DNA from: Nitrospiraceae bacterium
GTDB taxonomy: Bacteria > Nitrospirota > Nitrospiria > Nitrospirales > UBA2166
Length of the DNA stretch: 64,000 nt
Reading direction: 5' to 3'
Assembly: GCA_002726235.1 (NCBI GenBank)
Contig: PBSN01000008.1
Coordinates: 606,136 to 670,135 of the forward strand
Under the pieces are notes generated by a model that had not been told where the DNA came from, did no database searches, and saw only the letters and a program-made list of their open reading frames with translations. Of the stretch, positions 40,765 to 45,003 are shown in pieces. The position numbers were made by a program, and so were the translations under genes. Every line of letters starts with the position of its first letter. The first letter of the stretch is position 1.

Positions 40765-43700
40765 TCAGAACGCCACCCTTTTCGTTTCACCATTTTCAAG
40801 AAGATCGAAACAATGAGATATCCATTGCCGTGTCAGTTTTTCGTGGACCACGTTCTGCATTAAGCGTTCATGCAGACATTCAAAATCCACATGGTCCAAC
40901 TCTTGATCCTGATTAAAGCAGGAGAAAACAATCTTTTCCTTGCCACTTTCGGGATCCTCATGCCGTTGGAGACACTGGGCACAGATTTCCTTCATCATGC
41001 ACTGCATGGGGGAGTTGATGCTACCGATGGCTACATGATCTGGCTTGAAGAATTCTTCGAGCACCCCGTACCGAGCCTTGCGCACCGCATCCATCATGCG
41101 ATCTGATCCGATAACAATCATCCGGTCAACCTCATTGAGAGGGATGTCCCCCTTGCCAAGACTGCCGTCGCCATAGGCCTTGATGGATTCGATGATATTG
41201 GCCACCACGGCCTTGTCCTGAGGACGGGTGGGTTCGAATCCCGGTTCCTCGTCACAACACCAAACGATGACATCGCCTGAATTGATGATGTCCTTCACAT
41301 GGTAACGATCAGCCACTTGCTTATAGCCGGCAAAGTAGAGCACGCGGGAACCAGCATCGCGCAACGCTTGGCCAATAGAAAACAGCACCGCATTACCCAA
41401 ACCACCGCCAAGCAACATCACCGTCTCGTTCTTTGGTGTTTCCGTGGGAGCCCCTGTGGGACCCATCAGAACCACCGGCTCGCCAGGCTTAAGATGGATG
41501 CAGAGGTTAGACGATCCACCCATTTCCAGCACAATAACTGACACCAATCCCTTCTCTCGATCAACCCAAGCGCCGGTAAGAGCCAACCCTTCCATCGCCA
41601 AGGTCGTGCCATTAACCCGCAAGGCATGATTCTCATAGTTCTGCAGGCGAAAGAACTGTCCCGGCTGAAACGCCTGCGCCGCAAATGGTGCATGCAACAC
41701 CACTTCAACAATATTTGGTGTGAGGCGAACAACCTCCTTTACAGTGGCGCGCAACCCTGCATTCAATTCGGTTACCAAGTCAAGTGCCTTGATATCGGAG
41801 GGTGGGTTACGGTCAAGAACTCTCTGCACGATAGGAAATCCCTTCTTGGCACTGGCCATAGCACTCACCACGTTACCAGCAAAAGAGGGATGAAGGTCGC
41901 CAAAGAAACTGATGGAATGATTATCCTCGGTGATTTTGATGAGCGAATAGACCTTGCTCGGTTTCGCCGACCATTCAGGTTGTACCGGACTCCCCGACTC
42001 ATCCAAGGCTTGATAGTATTTGCCGTTCATCTCGGCAAAGCCGGGATGTTCGCGGGCTAGGGTTGTATTTGGCTGAGTGCCAGCAGCCACCAGAATCGCA
42101 CGAGCAGGAAGAGTCACTTCCTCGCCTGTGGATTTGGGGCGCCCATCCTCACCAATTTTCTGCCGCGCTAACCGAATGGCTTTGGTATGGCCATACTCGT
42201 CCAGCTCCACGGCCAACGGCGACAGCAATTCGGCAAACCGAATGCCCTCGTTGAGGGCATAGATAATCTCATCATGGTTGAGGGTATAGCTAGGCGAATC
42301 AATCATGCGACGACGATAGGCAATGGTGACACCACCCCACTGCTTGATAAGCTCGGCAAAATGGGGACTGCGCCCTTCCTCCTCCGCTACTTGGCGCTCT
42401 TCCCAGACAGCCATAGCATGAGCCAGGAACTCATCGGCGATCTCCGCCTCCTCTTCGGTGTAGAGGCTACGGACCATCTCTTCACCCTGCTCTTTCTTCA
42501 GAATGTTATAACGCACGCTAAATTTCTCCACTTGGCGTACGTAATAGGCCATGGCTTCCGTCGCCGAGTCGATAGCGGTCAGACCACCACCAATCACCAC
42601 CACAGGCAACCGCAGTTGCAAATTGGCGATGGTTTCCTTCTTGGCCGCACCAGTAAGCTGGAGCGCCATGAGAAAGTCAGAAGCCTGACGCACGCCACGG
42701 GCAAGACCGTTTGGCACAGAGAGATAGGTTGGCTTGCCAGCGCCAGCACACATTGCGATGTGATCAAATCCCATGGAAAAGGCAGATTCGGCAGTCATCG
42801 AACTGCCAAAACGAACGCCGCCGAACATCGTAAACAGTGACCGTCGCTCCACCAACAGGCGCAGGACCTTGAGAAAATTCTTGTCCCAGCGCACAGTGAT
42901 CCCGTATTCGGCAACACCACCAAATCCAGCCATGGCACGCTCATCAAGATTCTCATAAAGTTCGGCAATATCCTGAATTGGCTTGAAGACCACGCGTTCT
43001 CCACTAGCGGTTACGCCAGAAATTTTTGAATCCACGGGTTCAATCTTGAGACCATCTACGGCGACCACCGTATGACCTGCATTCATTAGAAAATGTCCCA
43101 GCGTGAAACCTGCAGGCCCCAGCCCTACGATTAGAACCTTGTAGCCAGTCTCTGGCAACGGCAGGGGTTGCTTAAAATTAAGCGGATTCCAGCGCGTCAG
43201 CAGGCTATAGATTTCAAATCCCCATGGCAAAGCCAAAGTATCCTTGACGATCCTAGTCTCCACTTGCGGAATTTCAACCGGCTCCTGCTTCTGGAAGATA
43301 CAGGCCTTGGAACACTCGTTACAGATACGATGGCCAGTACCAGCCACCAAGGGATTGTCCACGGCAATAATGGCCAGGGCGGCCAAAGTATATCCATCTA
43401 CCTTGACCTTATGCATCTCAGAAATTCGCTCGTCGAGAGGACAGCCAATAAGGGAAACTCCCAGGGGATTGTCCATGAAAGAACCAGTTTTCTTATCTCG
43501 GAACCCAGTGGAACAAGAATCACGCTCACGATCATGACAAAGGACGCAATAAGTGGCATGATCATACGCGCCAATGAAATCCATACCGTCATCGGTCAGC
43601 GAAAACCCATCACGGCGATAGAGGGGTTTGTCCTCAGGCTGTTTCATCGAGATGACGCCGTTTGCTTCCTCCGTGGACGTGGGCACAAGATTAAAATGAT

Positions 43701-44277
43701 CAACTTTTCGAATGAGGTGAAATAACACATTCTTCCCGTGACGTTTACGCCCAGCCTTTGTATGCCCCGCCCAAGCGGCATAGCGTTCGGCTAGATCGAT
43801 AGCGACAACGTTGGCCTCTTCGTCATCAAGCCACTCAAGAACATGCCTAGCAAAGGTTAGTTGATCTAAAGCACTGCCAAACCTTTCGGTCAATGCCTTC
43901 TCAAGCGCTGCCCCGTCAAACCCTTCCGCGTCTTCCGCTGAATGTGCCTTGGCGGCACGGCGCTGAATGAACTGTCGTTTGCATATCCGGATCGGAGCCA
44001 ACTCATTATCTCGTTCGGATAGTGCACGTAGGGACTGACCGATAGAAAAAAGGTTGCCAAGGAAATCCTCGAGATAGGGTGCAATGGCCACTAACAGGTT
44101 AGATTCATCGAGACGCTCTAGTTTGTCAGGCGCAGCGCGTGCCACCAACAGTTGGTCACACAATTCCTCATCCGATTCCCCGAGGTATTTAAGAAACAGA
44201 TCATCAATTCGCTTGAGCCCTTCAAGATCATAAAGATCTTCAAAAGCTAAATCGTAGCCCAGTAATATTTTAGTCAT
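40765..44277 (-). CDS. Very large NfnB-NfnA-like flavoprotein fusion
   Basis: Protein of about 1170 aa. An N-terminal helical region of about 240 residues has no recognised fold. It is followed by a cysteine-rich ferredoxin-like segment (CVLCHDRERDSC, then GCPLDE, then CNECSKAC) as in the GltD/NfnB N-terminal domain. Next come two Rossmann motifs (VLIVGLGPAGFTLGHF and VVVIGGGLTAIDSATE) typical of GltD/NfnB. The C-terminal third is a ferredoxin-NADP reductase-like module (GLRATVKEVVRLTPNIVEVVLH, LGGGLGNAVLFSIGQAL) ending with a PyrK/NfnA-like cysteine cluster (CMMKEICAQC, then a later C). The order is NfnB then NfnA in one chain. Such parts suggest electron transfer among NADH, NADPH and ferredoxin, but bifurcation is not shown. 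Start at ATG 44277; an upstream in-frame start at 44352 adds 25 residues. Confidence 0.75.
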   Translation of the reverse strand: MTKILLGYDLAFEDLYDLEGLKRIDDLFLKYLGESDEELCDQLLVARAAPDKLERLDESNLLVAIAPYLEDFLGNLFSIGQSLRALSERDNELAPIRICKRQFIQRRAAKAHSAEDAEGFDGAALEKALTERFGSALDQLTFARHVLEWLDDEEANVVAIDLAERYAAWAGHTKAGRKRHGKNVLFHLIRKVDHFNLVPTSTEEANGVISMKQPEDKPLYRRDGFSLTDDGMDFIGAYDHATYCVLCHDRERDSCSTGFRDKKTGSFMDNPLGVSLIGCPLDERISEMHKVKVDGYTLAALAIIAVDNPLVAGTGHRICNECSKACIFQKQEPVEIPQVETRIVKDTLALPWGFEIYSLLTRWNPLNFKQPLPLPETGYKVLIVGLGPAGFTLGHFLMNAGHTVVAVDGLKIEPVDSKISGVTASGERVVFKPIQDIAELYENLDERAMAGFGGVAEYGITVRWDKNFLKVLRLLVERRSLFTMFGGVRFGSSMTAESAFSMGFDHIAMCAGAGKPTYLSVPNGLARGVRQASDFLMALQLTGAAKKETIANLQLRLPVVVIGGGLTAIDSATEAMAYYVRQVEKFSVRYNILKKEQGEEMVRSLYTEEEAEIADEFLAHAMAVWEERQVAEEEGRSPHFAELIKQWGGVTIAYRRRMIDSPSYTLNHDEIIYALNEGIRFAELLSPLAVELDEYGHTKAIRLARQKIGEDGRPKSTGEEVTLPARAILVAAGTQPNTTLAREHPGFAEMNGKYYQALDESGSPVQPEWSAKPSKVYSLIKITEDNHSISFFGDLHPSFAGNVVSAMASAKKGFPIVQRVLDRNPPSDIKALDLVTELNAGLRATVKEVVRLTPNIVEVVLHAPFAAQAFQPGQFFRLQNYENHALRVNGTTLAMEGLALTGAWVDREKGLVSVIVLEMGGSSNLCIHLKPGEPVVLMGPTGAPTETPKNETVMLLGGGLGNAVLFSIGQALRDAGSRVLYFAGYKQVADRYHVKDIINSGDVIVWCCDEEPGFEPTRPQDKAVVANIIESIKAYGDGSLGKGDIPLNEVDRMIVIGSDRMMDAVRKARYGVLEEFFKPDHVAIGSINSPMQCMMKEICAQCLQRHEDPESGKEKIVFSCFNQDQELDHVDFECLHERLMQNVVHEKLTRQWISHCFDLLENGETKRVAF

Positions 44278-45003
44278 GGTTATGTCTTCTTGTTTCCCCA
44301 CGTATCGTTTCCTCATTATTTCTGCTCTTGGTGCAAAGCTTCTTCTCGTCATAGCTCATAGCGGTCCAATCATGCTCATACCCTGTATTAAGCTTTACCG
44401 AAAGATCCTTAATGATCTGCTAGTGGCACTTTTGATTCAAAACACCCATTGCCATCCTTCAGTCAATCATATAAGCAACTGATTCCAGAGAATCATACAT
44501 CGTCAATTCGAACTGTATCGTTAGTATTGACACTTGATTGTCCCCATCGCTTTTCTACCGACCCTATAATCATGGACAAATCGGCGCAACATGATAGCAT
44601 GAACGATCAAACATGCCATGAAAAGAATGGCGCAAGTTTAGCCAACAAACAAATGTGCCCCTGCCGATGAGATGCCCCCTCACCGAGGGCCAAACGATAA
44701 ACATTCTTGGACAACGGGAAGTAGAGCAACAATGCTACTCATCTTCAGCAAATGTACTTGTTCCATAATTTTGTCCACGCAATGGGTTTTGCAAATAAAC
44801 ATTACAGATGGCGCAGAGGAGAAAGGACATCACCCCATTCCACGTACCAGCTAGAAAAAATGCACCGCTGATTTTTAAACGCACAACATCGACGGAGTGA
44901 CTGAAAGCGTTGTTTTGTGACAGCGTGCTCTGACCTCACATCGAAGCCATGAAATCCGCGGCTAAAGGCTCCCAATGACCAAGCCCGCACACTGTGAGAA
45001 ACC
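44278..45003. other. Intergenic region upstream of the large flavoprotein
   Basis: About 725 bp between the FIST gene end and the flavoprotein start, both on the minus strand, with no convincing gene. Short open frames here lack ribosome binding sites and recognisable sequence. It should hold the promoter of the flavoprotein gene. Confidence 0.45.

Follow-up and report, generated by a model that had tools for sequence, protein, structure and literature searches.

Nfn is a two-subunit enzyme that anaerobes use for electron transfer among NADPH, NADH and ferredoxin. In aerobes with a high NADPH/NADP+ ratio and a low NADH/NAD+ ratio, the reverse, bifurcating direction of the Nfn reaction can turn favourable. 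The reaction Fd(red) + NADH + 2 NADP+ = Fd(ox) + NAD+ + 2 NADPH has been given as -20 kJ/mol under standard conditions, and a review from 2019 counted only one aerobe with an Nfn homologue (PMC6405883). The NfnB subunit has the [4Fe-4S] motifs RCx2Cx4Cx3CPV and GRVCPQExQCx3Cx13Gx2ER, and Arg187 of T. maritima NfnB, an arginine described as conserved in all Nfn, touches N5 of the bifurcating FAD (b-FAD); NfnA has the [2Fe-2S] motif DGTGMCGxCRx10CV with Asp-Cys3 ligation (PMC6405883). Fused Nfn forms have already been described as patterns B-D, of which pattern C, from Mobiluncus curtisii and some Alpha- and Gammaproteobacteria, is about 200 amino acids above the fusions of about 757 amino acids (PMC6405883).

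The window, which is the whole stretch of 64,000 nucleotides analysed here from a Nitrospiraceae bacterium, encodes a protein of 1170 amino acids with three parts: a helical N-terminal domain (residues 1-212), an NfnB/GltD-like part (219-824) and an NfnA/PyrK-like part (838-1156). The features of the gene are as follows.

40765..44277, minus strand: gene for the single-chain Nfn-like flavoprotein, 1170 amino acids
43642..44277, minus strand: residues 1-212, N-terminal helical domain, for which no relatives outside the family were found
43258..43548, minus strand: region of two predicted [4Fe-4S] clusters, C244, C247, C255, C279, C319, C322, C326 and E340, placed by sequence
42889..42891, minus strand: R463, at the position of the arginine that contacts N5 of b-FAD (T. 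maritima NfnB Arg187), by HMMER alignment
41806..43146, minus strand: residues 378-824, predicted b-FAD and NADPH Rossmann folds (GxGPAG, GGGLTAID, Y654-R655-R656)
42340..42531, minus strand: residues 583-646, helical insertion in the NADPH domain (AlphaFold2 helices 565-597, 608-634 and 640-646)
40810..41766, minus strand: residues 838-1156, NfnA/PyrK-like half with predicted a-FAD barrel and NAD fold (E896, T901, GGGLG 957-961, D1009)
40918..41001, minus strand: putative [2Fe-2S] site C1093, C1099, C1102 and C1120 (C1093-x5-C-x2-C-x17-C), by alignment with L. lactis PyrK

The uninterrupted frame on the minus strand covers 40765-44352 and would give 1195 amino acids (25 more) if counted from an upstream in-frame ATG at 44352. 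The ATG at 44277 is the likely start because a gene with 85% identity in another genome of the genus starts there. Homologues in several phyla match over the full length at 57-62% identity, which rules out chance as an explanation for the reading frame. The observation of the initial annotation, a single-chain NfnB-NfnA-like flavoprotein, is confirmed. The family is present once in the genome (27 contigs, 1.87 Mb), where a family search gave gltD as the sole further match, a weak one. Genes for a FIST protein and an alcohol dehydrogenase stay beside the gene across the genus, and none of its neighbours in the window or the genus is informative about function.

Both halves were matched by searches against Pfam, NCBIfam and PDB. 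The GltD/NfnB-like part was found as Fer4_20 and Pyr_redox_2 and by similarity to P. furiosus NfnI-L (E 4e-17), and the PyrK/NfnA-like part matched T. maritima NfnA in the PDB sequence search (E 5e-11). An AlphaFold2 model of the whole protein, built on an alignment of 45 sequences, reached a pLDDT of 87.4 and a pTM of 0.89; the loop 451-462, which adjoins R463, is modelled with low confidence. Residues 220-823 of the model superimpose on P. furiosus NfnI-L (5jfc_L) with Z 25.2 and rmsd 2.5 over 435 of 463 residues, while Xfn follows at Z 24.8 and GltD, almost tied, at Z 23-24. Residues 838-1156 resemble T. maritima NfnA (4yry_C; Z 13.5, rmsd 2.7, 259 residues) and NfnI-S (5jca_S; Foldseek TMt 0.86). 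The insertion at 583-646 has no counterpart in canonical Nfn, and the fused Nfn of 847 amino acids from another genome of the same phylum (L022) is gapped at the same place.

The initial annotation left about 240 N-terminal residues unassigned, and residues 1-212 indeed match nothing in Pfam, queried with 32 family members, or in PDB, searched with a sequence profile. Modelled separately with AlphaFold2 they form a single helical unit (pLDDT 92.8). Fold searches with Foldseek and VIA-align yielded no usable match to it (the top Foldseek hit had E 2.6 and the highest Z was 4.3), though a related fold may have been missed. The domain is conserved throughout the family, with R47, F72, F77, F103 and W169 among the invariant residues. 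Across 185 Gammaproteobacteria it is confined to the 34 genomes with the full-length protein and always lies inside long frames. A possible role would be the docking of a partner or of a second subunit.

The predicted FAD and Fe-S content follows from residues conserved in sequence, and the cofactor-binding positions that the initial annotation had singled out for checking are retained. All seven cysteines of the cluster domain and E340 are invariant in 45 homologues, and C247, C255, C279, C319, C322, C326 and E340 are common to the canonical fused Nfn as well. The ligands are kept, although the spacing (Cx2Cx7C...GCPL and GHRICNxCxxxC) departs from the Nfn motifs. R463 is invariant (45/45). 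Its counterpart in the alignment with P. furiosus NfnI-L is R201, which was equated with Arg187 by counting on from a column that the aligned sequences share and not from a paper. The glycine motifs for FAD and NADPH are also invariant in the 45 sequences, as is Y654-R655 of the arginine pair for the NADP 2'-phosphate, position 656 being R or K in an alignment of 15.

In the C-terminal half E896, T901, GGGLG, D1009 and the four cysteines are invariant in the same 45 sequences. The strand for a-FAD, ERxPxT in NfnA, keeps E896 and T901 in the branch of the window, with R and P replaced (EGLALT). Judged by where it falls when aligned to the fused Nfn (L022), D1009 may mark a preference for NADH over NADPH. 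The terminal cysteine cluster noted at the outset is seen as CMMKEICAQC...C, with four cysteines in place of the Asp-Cys3 motif of Nfn, and the potential of such a cluster should therefore differ from that in Nfn. Since the sequences depart from two Nfn-defining motifs, the family is called Nfn-like and not Nfn.

A scan that took a single genome for each species found relatives encoded in at least 578 genome stretches, mostly from Proteobacteria and Acidobacteria. The hosts include Alpha- and Betaproteobacteria, Acidobacteria, Planctomycetes and Mariprofundus, among others, and the best 80 stretches are at 57-62% identity. Many of the stretches belong to groups known as aerobic (Azospirillum, Nitrosomonas, Nitrotoga, Acidobacteria, Planctomycetes). 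In sampled genomes the family occurs in 34 of 185 Gammaproteobacteria and 53 of 240 Alphaproteobacteria, including genomes of 1.0-1.4 Mb. A phage search at 1e-30 gave no match and a plasmid search a single one, pTcM1 of Acidithiobacillus. In a quick tree of 91 proteins, for which the sampling was biased to the 80 closest loci, the protein of the window and its counterpart in the genus-mate form a group with a protein from Rhodospirillales (SH-aLRT 99), apart from the four proteins of the same phylum but other families; lateral transfer is therefore likely.

The window protein belongs to a branch in which the sites for the second FAD and for NAD are intact. In a side branch with the A. caldus plasmid protein and gammaproteobacterial proteins (G307, G476, G368 and G329; L123-L125 and L128), the Gly-rich loop on the NAD side is gone, and T901 and D1009 are mostly gone. 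The NfnB half of these proteins is retained, as are all four [2Fe-2S] cysteines. NAD coupling is thus not universal in the family.

The nearest described model, NF005128/PRK06567, matches over almost the whole length, N-terminal domain included (E 2e-241). Residues 6-707 align with model positions 3-684, and further stretches reach position 1029 in the same domain order. The score of 803.8 bits is below the curated cut-off of 1072, which was reached in none of the 240 alphaproteobacterial genomes sampled, so the model covers only part of the family. It is named 'putative bifunctional glutamate synthase subunit beta/2-polyprenylphenol hydroxylase'. The initial annotation had considered a glutamate-synthase-related form with a different established role; our literature search found no such role for NF005128, no tests of its two named activities and no paper on the family.

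Most of the 80 loci that were fetched are stand-alone, as judged by crude gene calling that recovered 70 of the 80 targets, and an operon conserved across the whole family was rejected on this ground. In what follows, family matches stand behind the names NIR_SIR, FdxA (PF11953), the AprA-like set and the transporter; the cys, pnt and grx genes and those for heme A synthase are named from our own reading of translations. In two Nitrosomonadaceae (L107 and L110) the order is regulator, sulfite reductase, (cysH), cysD, cysN, target and pntAA-pntAB-pntB, with extra genes in a third (L112), and in Nitrotoga (L081) the target is followed by pntAA-AB-B. A sulfite reductase hemoprotein lies immediately upstream in two Alphaproteobacteria (L036, L040), and in several Alphaproteobacteria a heme A synthase-like gene is divergent to the target. 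The genome of the window has, on another contig, cysH preceded by a sulfite reductase whose C-terminus is TusA-like.

The gene for FdxA is directly upstream of the target at two loci (L075, L100), and in five Gammaproteobacteria (G307, G476, G368, G330, G433) FdxA and the target have a divergent GrxD between them. One longer set (L058) reads GntR, AprA-like flavoprotein (PRK08275), AprB-like ferredoxin, HEAT, FdxA, SsuABC-like transporter and target. L060 has this set without FdxA, and related sets occur on pTcM1 (FdxA included) and in G329; this AprA-like/sulfonate-transporter operon is found in Betaproteobacteria and on the Acidithiobacillus plasmid. Among Gammaproteobacteria, FdxA is present in 34/34 family-positive and 116/151 family-negative genomes (Fisher p 5e-4, kinship uncorrected). 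A search for PF11953 did not find it in the window genome and nine relatives. The FdxA neighbours in several lineages support the suggestion of a ferredoxin-linked enzyme, and the interpretation first offered is, as a whole, partly supported. Sulfite reduction and AprA-like reactions are plausible clients, going by these gene neighbours.

We consider the chances about even that the protein is a stand-alone Nfn-like NADPH:ferredoxin oxidoreductase, coupled to NAD and bifurcating in the branch of the window. The direction, the bifurcation and the clients that we infer would be as follows. NADPH would pass a hydride to the b-FAD of the NfnB-like half, from which one electron would travel through the two [4Fe-4S] clusters to ferredoxin, while the other would reach NAD+ by way of the [2Fe-2S] cluster and the second FAD. 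On balance NADPH would be consumed to give reduced ferredoxin and NADH, opposite to the usual direction of Nfn in anaerobes, and this would be favourable at high NADPH and high NAD+. Reduced ferredoxin might then serve sulfite reduction and other low-potential reactions. PntAB, which adjoins the target in Nitrosomonadaceae, would convert NADH to NADPH again, driven by the proton gradient, and with PntAB the net effect would be reduction of ferredoxin at the expense of the proton-motive force. As a tentative extension, the large Nfn-like family might work in the bifurcating direction in aerobic bacteria and, with PntAB, convert proton-motive force into low-potential ferredoxin electrons, which would feed sulfur assimilation and further anabolic steps.

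The side branch with the degenerate NAD site, which keeps its NfnB half and four [2Fe-2S] cysteines, would suit a plain, non-bifurcating NADPH:ferredoxin reductase that can dispense with NAD; its NfnA-like half would be left as an additional electron port or as a relic. P. furiosus NfnII, which is reported to have NAD-independent ferredoxin:NADP activity, points the same way (PMC6405883). The intact second FAD and NAD sites in the window's own branch, conserved 45/45, and the retained R463 argue against such a reductase there, and we regard it as possible but short of probable. The sulfate-assimilation gene sets of Nitrosomonadaceae and the two alphaproteobacterial loci suggest another role, that of a dedicated electron donor to sulfite reductase in place of the CysJ flavoprotein. 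NIR_SIR is indeed found in 44 of 48 family-positive genomes and near-full-length CysJ in only 2. However, in Gammaproteobacteria CysJ is not rarer with the family (10/34 family-positive against 17/151 family-negative genomes), and 7 of the 34 have no NIR_SIR match at all. Replacement of CysJ as the general role of the family was rejected on these counts, which indicate that sulfite reductase is possibly one client but not the sole client, and a dedicated donor of this kind is unlikely.

The name of the closest model, and the fold of the NfnB half, which is similar to GltD and DPD, would also fit a glutamate-synthase-related beta subunit or a DPD/YgfK/AegA-type reductase serving another catalytic subunit. 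The genome of the window has gltB and gltD adjacent on another contig (C7), with no gltB beside the window gene, and this GltD has Lys (GIPDFKIEK) and not Arg at the N5 position. No GltB-like neighbour was seen at the loci examined, and Nfn structures rank first for the NfnB half, though GltD is within 1-2 Z units. The target is not regarded as a glutamate synthase subunit because of the separate gltBD, and we hold this whole class of explanation to be very improbable.

If the preferred reading of NAD-coupled bifurcation is true, the protein would offer aerobic hosts a soluble route to low-potential ferredoxin electrons, and sulfite reductases without CysJ a source of electrons. For the question of what bifurcation needs, the branch whose NADH site is degenerate offers a natural comparison.

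Compared with the described systems, the fusion as such is not new because single-chain Nfn is already known. The target shares with Nfn the two half folds, the ligands of two [4Fe-4S] clusters, the arginine at N5 of b-FAD, the NADPH arginines and the a-FAD and NAD folds. It departs from two-subunit Nfn in being a single chain with the NfnB half first, in its helical N-terminal domain and helical insert, in the altered cysteine spacing and four-cysteine [2Fe-2S] site, and in an identity of about 20-28% to the solved subunits. By the description in the review, pattern C is similar in having one gene with a C-terminal NfnA-like part and a greater length than other fusions, but the target exceeds the fusions of about 757 amino acids by about 410 residues. 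With PyrK it has in common the FAD/NAD folds and the four-cysteine [2Fe-2S] site of the C-terminal half, while its first two cysteines lie one residue further apart, and it has a fused NfnB half and no PyrD in the chain. The likeness to GltD lies in the fold of residues 219-826 (Z 23-24), from which it differs by the arginine at N5 and by its extra domains. The family is unusual in its divergence, in the four cysteines of its [2Fe-2S] site, in the helical insert and in an N-terminal domain that our searches found nowhere else, and it is the N-terminal domain, the insertion, the cluster ligation and the hosts that set it apart from the known fused Nfn.

Several stretches carry a recurrent gene set of GntR, an AprA-like flavoprotein, an AprB-like ferredoxin, a HEAT protein, the ferredoxin FdxA, a sulfonate-type ABC transporter and a member of the target family:

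L114:6361-14035, the set on A. caldus plasmid pTcM1
L058:1627-13501, the set
L060:2284-13498, the set without FdxA
L128:489-8742, the set, of which only the part between HEAT and target, both included, was read

Sulfonate-type transporter genes adjoin one of the two target-family copies in genome G329 (C1:325091-328516 and C9:102786-106250). Another gene order, FdxA, a divergent GrxD-like monothiol glutaredoxin and the target, was found in five gammaproteobacterial genomes, three of which measure 1.0-1.7 Mb:

L123:1653-6428, the three genes
L124:1431-6231, the three genes
L125, L126 and L127, the three genes

The proteins of L114, L123, L124, L125 and L128 form a side branch of the target family with a degenerate NAD/second-FAD site in the C-terminal halves, where the [2Fe-2S] cysteines are kept. 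The [2Fe-2S] motif is Asp-type in a canonical NfnB-NfnA fusion from genome G069, of the same phylum as the window:

L022:370-2913, the fusion, 847 aa

Further genes were noted in the window and elsewhere in its genome, where a nitrate reductase-like gene lies near the NirB-like gene:

window:40262-40579 (-), PF0610-like helix-turn-helix and zinc-ribbon protein, downstream of the target gene
L144:7363-10386 (contig C14), NirB-like nitrite reductase with Rieske-type C-terminus, single 1007-aa chain
L143:7123-9594 (contig C7), sulfite reductase hemoprotein with C-terminal TusA-like domain
L143:9524-10321 (contig C7), cysH-like gene, next after the sulfite reductase gene

This sulfite reductase hemoprotein resembles in sequence the one adjoining the target in Nitrosomonas.
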